A DNA stretch of 64,000 bases from Rhizobium sp. Pop5 (GTDB lineage: Bacteria; Pseudomonadota; Alphaproteobacteria; Rhizobiales; Rhizobiaceae): positions 2,232,001 to 2,296,000 of the forward strand of contig NZ_CP099399.1 in NCBI RefSeq assembly GCF_024721175.1. Reading direction: 5' to 3'. The first letter of the stretch is position 1; each line of letters begins with the position of its first letter. A program made the position numbers and the translations under genes. Below the pieces are notes generated by a model. It saw only the letters and a list, made by a program, of their open reading frames with translations, did not search any database and had not been told where the DNA came from. Below are positions 3,899-5,002 of the stretch, one piece after another.

Positions 3899-5000
3899 CT
3901 TGTACGTTGCCGTTGCGGTATAATGCTCCTGTGCGACGGGGATGCGTGTCATCCTTGGGTTTCGAACTCGGACCTCAGCAAGCATCCCCGTCGCCATGTC
4001 TTCGCTCGAACGGTTGACTGGGCTTCGAGCCCGCGTGGCAAGGAGGAGCACCCCATGCATGTCCCGCAAGCTTTCATGGTCGGCATCGATGTCTCGAAGG
4101 CCCATCTCGACGTGGCCGTCGAGGGCAAACCCGCCGTCGCTCGCTTCGACAACGATGCGCCGGGCCAGACCGCGCTGGCGACGGCGATAGCCGGCGCCCA
4201 ACTCGTCGTCGTCGAGGCCACCGGCGGCTACGAGATGGCAATCGTCAGGACGCTGATGGCCGCCGGCATTGCCGTCGCCGTCGTCAATCCCCGCCAGGTC
4301 CGCGACTTCGCCAGGGCCAGCGGCCGGCTGGCCAAGACCGACCAGGTCGACGCCCGCGTCATCTGCCACTTCGCCAGAGCGATGCGGCCGGCACAGATCC
4401 CCCATATCGACGACAGCCGCATCGCTCTGGCTGCCCTTGTCGCCCGCCGTCGCCAGCTCATCGACATGGCCGTCGCCGAGAAGAACCGCCTCGAACATGC
4501 CCCGCAAGCCGTTGCCGCGCTGATCGGCGAGACCATCGCCGCCCTCAAGGCCCAGCTTGCCCGTGTCGATGCCGCCATCGCGCTCGCCATCGATGCCCAA
4601 CCCGACATTGCCGCACGCCGCGATCTGCTGCTGACCGTGCCCGGTATCGGCGAGGTCAGCGCCGCCGTGCTCATCGCCGAACTGCCCGAACTCGGCGCCA
4701 TCGACGACAAGAAGCTCGCCGCCCTCGTCGGCGTCGCCCCGATCGCCCACGACAGCGGTACCTGGCGCGGCCAGCGCCATATCGCCGGCGGCCGCGCCAC
4801 CGTCAGATGCGCCCTCTATATGGCAACCTTGTCGGCCATCCGCTGCAGCCCGGCCATCAAGGCCTTCCACAAAAGACTGCGCGACGCCGGCAAGCCACCC
4901 AAGGTCGCCATCGTCGCCGCCATGCGAAAATTCATCATCATGATCAACACAATCCTCAAAAGACAAACGCCATGGAGCGAGCCGCAACAACACGGTTGCT
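3899..5000 (+). mobile_element. IS110-family insertion sequence, element 1 (about 1.1 kb)
   Basis: Bounded by a shared CT dinucleotide: 3899-3900 at the left junction (CCTCATCCT then TGTACG) and 4999-5000 at the right (GGTTGCT then GAGGTGCG). There is no terminal inverted repeat and no target duplication beyond CT, as usual for IS110. The flanks join into an intact family C REP unit. The IS is made of a ~154-nt structured non-coding left end and one DEDD transposase gene that runs to the right end. Confidence 0.9.
3925..4054 (+). ncRNA. Putative bridge RNA of IS110 element 1
   Basis: A 13-bp perfect stem (3933-3945 with 3982-3994) closes a loop. The loop contains TCATCCT (3949-3955), identical to the left target half plus core, and ACCTCAG (3972-3978), the complement of the right target CTGAGGT. 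A second hairpin (GCTCGAA 4004-4010 / TTCGAGC 4024-4030) presents ACGGTTG (4010-4016), identical to the IS right end. CAAG at 4039-4042 is complementary to CTTG at the circularised junction. A perfect -10 TATAAT lies at 3919-3924. This is the target-loop/donor-loop order known from the IS621 bridge RNA. RNA ends are inferred. Confidence 0.75.
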
Positions 5001-5002
5001 GA
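4055..5002 (+). CDS. IS110-family DEDD transposase (element 1)
   Basis: 315 residues. The ATG at 4055 has AAGGAGGAG upstream. The N-terminal RuvC-like DEDD domain shows [15 protein letters not shown] (first Asp), [10 protein letters not shown] (Glu) and [12 protein letters not shown] (Asp-x-x-Asp). The C-terminal Transposase_20 domain carries [20 protein letters not shown] and the Ser-containing region [14 protein letters not shown]. Length and both domains are complete, so the enzyme looks active. The TGA stop is split: its T is the target core base and GA comes from the flank. It acts as an RNA-guided recombinase in characterised family members. Confidence 0.95.

Follow-up and report, generated by a model that had tools for sequence, protein, structure and literature searches.

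The bridge RNA of IS621 from E. coli carries a left target guide that is the same as the left half of the target and a right target guide that is complementary to the right half; its donor loop treats the joined ends of the element likewise, and its right donor guide is discontiguous, nine bases of the RNA pairing with seven of the DNA (PMC11208160). The same report describes longer right guides for some IS621 orthologues and predicts bridge RNAs for 85.7% of the IS110-group elements in ISfinder (PMC11208160), and the presence of such an RNA in the element studied here was therefore expected. Two features were less expected: the stop codon is missing from the element itself, and more than one lineage is programmed for the same half-site. 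Insertion into REPs is itself documented for the group: all described copies of ISRm19 (Sinorhizobium meliloti), ISPpu9/ISPpu10 and ISPa11 lie in REPs, and a common insertion point in a REP has been reported for ISPpu9 and ISPpu10 (PMC1525189). Natural redirection through changed RNA target segments has been described for ISEc11 and ISXne4, the transposases of which are 72% identical (PMC11187229).

The element in question, IS110 element 1, lies in a window of 64 kb (the whole stretch of DNA that was analysed) from Rhizobium sp. Pop5. It resembles IS621 in having a related recombinase and a predicted RNA of the left end in which a target loop precedes a donor loop and, as far as the published description of IS621 goes, in guide order, CT core, REP target and discontiguous right donor guide. 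The promoter of IS621 spans the joined ends, and IS110 element 1 has a candidate promoter in this position. The differences concern the span of the target guides (nine bases left and four right with the core included in IS621, about five on each side of the core here) and the size of the RNA, with 177 nt against 119 modelled positions (PMC11208160). Moreover, the REP is a different one, the left donor guide of IS110 element 1 does not continue into the core, and a target-made stop codon sets the element apart from IS621. ISRm19 is likewise rhizobial, with four of four copies in REPs, a likeness drawn from its published description (PMC1525189). The redirection of ISEc11/ISXne4 took place between close relatives (PMC11187229), whereas the guide changes reported below are found among relatives with about 40-52% identity.

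Extent, copies and vacant site

We have identified positions 3899-4998 (+) as a complete and intact IS110-group element of 1,100 bp, with the CT core first. The sequence-only reading had extended it over 3899-5002; its start stands, whereas the end has to be moved to 4998, as 4999-5000 repeat the CT core and the GA of the stop codon (5001-5002) belongs to the target. The left half of the target, CCTCATC, is found at 3892-3898 (+), and the second core copy with the right half, CTGAGGT, at 4999-5005 (+). This extent rests on an identical second copy, on ends shared with relatives and on a vacant orthologous site. The second copy is located 116 kb away (G000:C2:2119658) in the host genome (G000, 6.74 Mb, which contains the window) and has different flanks, the two copies being 100% identical across 1,102 bases. 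Both ends are common to relatives at about 78-93% DNA identity, the closest of which come from named Rhizobium records.

At the same locus in the related genome G438 the target is uninterrupted, TCCTCATCCTGAGGTGCGCAGGCC, and 263 of 283 bases are identical over the joined flanks; a second, tandem version of this vacant site is also present there (194 of 229 identical). Compared with the vacant site, insertion duplicated CT alone. For the second own-genome copy, a vacant orthologous site was sought in related genomes and none was clear. Seven further loci (L091, L114, L117, L122, L124, L125 and L089) contain only the left 93-268 bases, the bridge-RNA region included, and no right end; L117 is cut by the end of its contig and the other six look like deletion remnants.

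Transposase

The transposase (recombinase) gene (4055-5002, +) encodes 315 aa. Its position fits the IS110-group layout, with 156 nt ahead of the ATG and a gene that reaches the right end; the IS1111 group has the reverse layout, with a short left and a long right non-coding end. The product matches Pfam families PF01548 (E 1e-25) and PF02371 (E 1e-19), and its sequence relatives in the PDB at E 0.001 are ISCro4 (1.3e-41) and IS621 (6.1e-40). The DEDD RuvC-like domain is present, as is Transposase_20 with its catalytic serine motif; the motifs were aligned with those of ISCro4, and the residue roles were taken from PMC11208158.

Predicted bridge RNA and its guides

The predicted bridge RNA (3931-4054, +) was delimited, with putative ends, by its fold and a covariance model. 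It opens with a target-binding stem-loop (3933-3994, +), seen in the fold and in alignments, the 13-bp stem of which joins 3933-3945 with 3982-3994. The loop contains the left target guide TCATCCT (3949-3955, +), the same as target positions 3894-3900, and the right target guide ACCTCAG (3972-3978, +), the reverse complement of 4999-5005; target pairing is thus balanced, with about five bases on either side of the core. A donor-binding hairpin follows in the fold (4004-4030, +; 4004-4010 with 4024-4030) and displays the left donor guide ACGGTTG (4010-4016, +), identical to the right end of the element at 4992-4998. The right donor guide CGUGGCAAG (4034-4042, +) places CAAG (4039-4042) on CTTG (3899-3902) and CGU on the ACG of the left end, a pattern as in PMC11208160. 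The stem, the four matching segments and their IS621-like order had all been proposed in the sequence-only reading and are borne out here; IS621 as published has this order too, and likewise a discontiguous right donor guide. Although both donor guides match the joined ends, AC rather than the core CT comes after the left one. When the 130-nt left end was resampled 200,000 times under a first-order Markov model, the two target guides arose in the same order five times.

Some variation exists among relatives. The core T of the left target guide is replaced by C in some of them, and the right guide also takes the form GCCTCAG in the close family, which pairs with GAGGC and can also accommodate GAGGT through a wobble pair. 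A candidate handshake guide, CA, at 3979-3980 (+) lies opposite donor G and T (for the concept see PMC11208158). Directly after the right target guide stands a C that faces donor G7, in a handshake-like arrangement. Among 49 elements examined, six have no right guide of at least five bases including the core, and the other 43 all have C as their first handshake base; because donor G7 was fixed by the search motif, this is conservation, not covariation. At the second handshake position, covariation with the donor was not significant (p 0.22).

The fold of the left end is better than that of most shuffled sequences (z -2.40; 4 of 200 shuffles equally good). Within the close family, the named helices are paired in 94.6% of cells, compared with 94.3% in shuffles. 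Covariation within this family was rejected as evidence of structure for being too weak, with a single two-sided pair change, a value reached by 178 of 500 shuffles. A covariance model of 119 positions was built from the close family and searched against the left ends of distant IS110 elements, where it reaches G553 (2e-7) and G795 (7e-6) as best matches; up to E 5, 40 of 46 matches are situated just upstream of a transposase on the same strand and six elsewhere. In the model-fitted alignment all 27 pairs exhibit two-sided changes, in 283 cells altogether, where shuffles averaged 91 and 0 of 500 reached the observed value, though the alignment was fitted to the structure, leans towards it and contains the six stray matches.

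A candidate promoter exists in the circular form only. The joined ends create TTGCTT (4996-4998 plus 3899-3901), separated by a 17-nt spacing from TATAAT, the candidate -10 (3919-3924, +); the -35 fits at just three of six positions. At least four of the six bases of TATAAT are kept at the same spacing in 15 of 16 distinct family elements, and none in L079. In the integrated form, a promoter scan gave no hit. Downstream, AAGGAGG (4040-4046, +), by its motif a likely ribosome-binding site, overlaps the right donor guide.

Insertion sites in the close family

Family copies were drawn from 148 genus genomes, named genome contigs and plasmids; 23 of the 148 genomes, own genome included, gave a DNA match at E 1e-20. 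After removal of one false pick (L065) from 34 distinct left flanks of 25 nt, 33 were retained, some of them orthologous sites one base apart, and TCATC stands ahead of the core CT in 27. The others read TCAAC (two), TCACC (two), TTATC (one) and CTCAT (one). Right flanks of 20 nt, separated by hand from other elements and from false picks L008, L074, L088 and L089, also came to 33 distinct sequences, of which 31 are CT-GAGG[T/C] (21 GAGGT and 10 GAGGC), one is GAGGG and one TGAGG. The TCAAC flanks both derive from a single site adjoining tssI, which is occupied in the two plasmid lineages L105 and L081/L106. The furthest variant, TCAAC-CT-GAGGG on R. leguminosarum and R. binae plasmids, is two positions off the guides, which are unchanged there. 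A diverged fragment, L109, sits at CCTCATT, outside the search pattern.

The sequence-only reading had asked whether every copy occupies the repeat site. No unrelated site occurred among the copies examined, the exceptions being variants of the half-site, and the suggested programming for a rhizobial repeat gains support from the large majority of left and right flanks, which are the half-site spelled by the guides. The close family is nevertheless uninformative on the guide-target rule itself, because guides and target are both shared.

Supply of targets

The repeat had been estimated at about 12 copies in 64 kb, which is correct for degenerate copies and does not hold for exact ones: the window contains 13 matches with at most two mismatches to TCATCCTGAGGT, one of which is the guide RNA itself and not all of which are repeats. 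Across G000 there are two vacant exact TCATCCTGAGG[T/C] sites, both C-ending, and the reversed control pattern also gives two. With at most one mismatch, 87 vacant sites exist against 6 for the control. Both insertions in G000 are at exact TCATCCTGAGGT, though vacant sites with one mismatch outnumber exact ones 85 to 2. Exact vacant sites were detected in 28 of 32 genus genomes; each of the 32 has between 0 and 54 of them, compared with 0-2 for the control, and the highest numbers are those of G349 (54), G376 (41) and G298 (39). The repeat was therefore amplified in many relatives, and the copies in the window are mostly degenerate.

Guides and flanks in distant relatives

The main alternative to guidance by RNA is that the recombinase itself, or REP structure acting as a hotspot, picks the site, the matches in the left end being incidental or an old captured repeat. 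A preference for REPs is known from other IS families, for instance from the IS4 element ISRm22 (PMC1525189), and in the close family guide and target are constant and cannot separate the two ideas. The sequence-only reading had pointed to covariation of loop segments with flanks among relatives, and this check showed that the segments do track the flanks in distant IS110 elements with other targets.

Of 19 candidate distant groups, seven had no usable identical copies, which left 12 with defined ends and about 40-52% protein identity. G795, with the target CCTCCCC-CT-CAGGGG, has guides TCCCCC and CCCCTGAG; G791, at CCATC-CT-TCGAGAC in the other arm of a REP-like repeat, has CCATCCT and TCGAAG; G640 combines target CTCTCCCG with guides CGGGAGAG; and in Syntrophorhabdus CTGGAAC is accompanied by the guide GTTCCAG. 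When guides were swapped among elements, with core positions set by hand from the donor motif, the observed sum of longest right-target runs was reached in 0 of 200,000 permutations (12 elements, IS110 element 1 included) and that of left-target runs in 1 of 200,000 (11 elements). These permutations left out G553, which has the target of IS110 element 1, and, in the left test only, Syntrophorhabdus, whose contigs end at the element. A looser score, the best ungapped match of nine, was weaker, reached by 63 (right) and 768 (left) of 200,000 permutations. The fit also varied by side: that of G648 is confined to the left and that of G635, R635 and Mohn lies chiefly on the right; element 2 of G000 hardly fits at all.

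The test of the right target was repeated automatically, anchored on the donor guide. Seventeen truncated loci were dropped and 94 others considered; 21 lacked a donor motif and nine a right-end match, and the other 64 comprised 37 distinct elements. The mean right-target run with the own guide was 6.22 against 4.52 (sd 0.17), and 0 of 100,000 permutations were as high, in guide permutation tests that, here as above, retain relatedness among the elements. Runs of at least six were found in 27 of the 37 and shorter ones in ten.

Selection of the site by recombinase or hotspot is thus, in our judgement, highly improbable. Relatives with other targets have correspondingly different guides, G791 sits in the other REP-like arm with a matching right guide, and both G000 copies occupy exact matches in a genome where vacant near-matches far outnumber vacant exact ones.

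As a separate observation, the left guide of G791 (L132, L161-L163) shares CATCCT with the close family, while its right guide, together with its target, belongs to the other REP-like arm.

Repeated programming for one half-site

CT-GAGG targets are present in three lineages: the close family, G553 and G714 (43%), the last with guides TTCATCT and GGCTCAG, a partial match. A transposase tree of 65 rows, from which the long or poorly placed L056, L058, L145, L170 and L179 and most close copies were left out, includes seven rows with the CT-GAGG label and 39 with other known targets. Three changes are needed on this tree and a single clade is rejected (p-AU 1.4e-5), with the reservations that the label was chosen after the first tree, that three changes could equal one gain and two losses and that G714 is a long branch. 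Since separate lineages, and G791 as well, are aimed at host repeats, the guides appear to have come repeatedly to point there.

Stop codon supplied by the target

The transposase frame ends in GGT TGC T|GA, where T is the core (5000) and GA is target (5001-5002). This target-made TGA terminates an intact frame in 27 of 35 full-length family loci, a set that includes several same-site repeats; the remaining eight (L024, L073, L078, L081, L100, L103, L106 and L107), which represent five distinct copies, have a shifted or broken frame. A stop within the element, about 14-36 bases ahead of the core, is found in most of the distant relatives examined, and in G714 (L137) the stop likewise consists of core T and target GA. 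In the circular form the frame of IS110 element 1 would add LYVAVAV and stop at the TAA inside TATAAT, a position at which 9 of 16 distinct elements also stop in the circle.

A stop codon generated by the target is shared with IS870: according to the title of Fournier et al. 1993, the gene of IS870 reportedly receives its stop codon from the target sequence. IS870 is an element of another kind, with a CTAG target, and is not known to have a guide RNA. In the literature searched, mostly open-access with few preprints, we found no report of a target-made stop in an IS110 element and nothing on the bridge RNA of a rhizobial IS110.

It is conceivable, although we consider it rather unlikely, that guide RNA and frame have become mutually locked, the own stop being lost and the target chosen by the RNA supplying one. 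If so, a correct landing would complete the gene, whereas the circle or a non-GA site would give an altered C-terminus of the recombinase; target fidelity would then be coupled to protein function and drift of the right target guide hindered. In any case, the target-completed stop codon offers a way to ask if RNA-guided target choice feeds back on a protein.

Two loci deserve separate mention. L105, on an R. leguminosarum plasmid (element 1501-2598), has no stop anywhere around the circle and, without a target-made stop, an endless frame. At L066 (R. aethiopicum), a right end alone on its contig, the right flank CT-TGAGG is one base off, and the target would therefore not give a stop codon.

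Proposed mode of transposition

On sequence evidence, IS110 element 1 is a well-supported and new bridge-RNA-guided member of the IS110 group, and we are highly confident that it is intact and transposes by bridge-RNA-guided recombination like IS621. The element would excise as a circle, the joined ends of which would form a promoter, and transcription of the left end from this promoter would yield a guide RNA of about 120-130 nt. One loop of the RNA, its complementarity being plain in the sequence, would pair with both strands of the rhizobial REP half-site TCATC-CT-GAGGT, and the joined ends of the element would be bound by the second hairpin together with the nucleotides that follow it. Strand exchange at CT by the DEDD recombinase would then insert the circle with CT alone repeated, as the vacant and filled sites show it. 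On insertion the target completes the recombinase gene, TGA being formed from core T and target GA.

That the left end of the integrated copy instead serves the transposase mRNA mainly as a structured leader or regulatory RNA, in an element now immobile, would suit a predicted RNA that extends into the ribosome-binding site and the frames damaged in 8 of 35 family loci, yet it is barely credible, as two identical intact copies at different sites of one genome suggest recent movement and a leader alone leaves guides that follow the flanks unexplained. Leader and bridge-RNA roles could, however, coexist.

With transposition guided by a bridge RNA as the preferred reading, IS110 element 1 and its family represent a natural series from plant-associated bacteria, comprising related bridge RNAs, filled targets, a vacant target and off-target cases; further out, the retargeted relatives extend this series of bridge RNAs.

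Other features of the window

A second, different IS110 element is present in the window at 8747-9688 (-), with flanks at about 8680-9900 and a protein 40% identical; a further copy is found at G000:C2:2042340. In this element CC, not CT, follows the donor motif, and the guides hardly match its own flanks.

A search of 3850-4150 with Rfam returned just two matches, both sub-threshold. One is to sX15, a Xanthomonas sRNA, at 3919-4059 (-), antisense to the bridge RNA; it scores 21.6 bits where 55 are required (E 0.14) and is probably due to chance. At gathering scores, the only Rfam match in the 64-kb window is a cobalamin riboswitch at 38853-39107 (-), with 105.8 bits.
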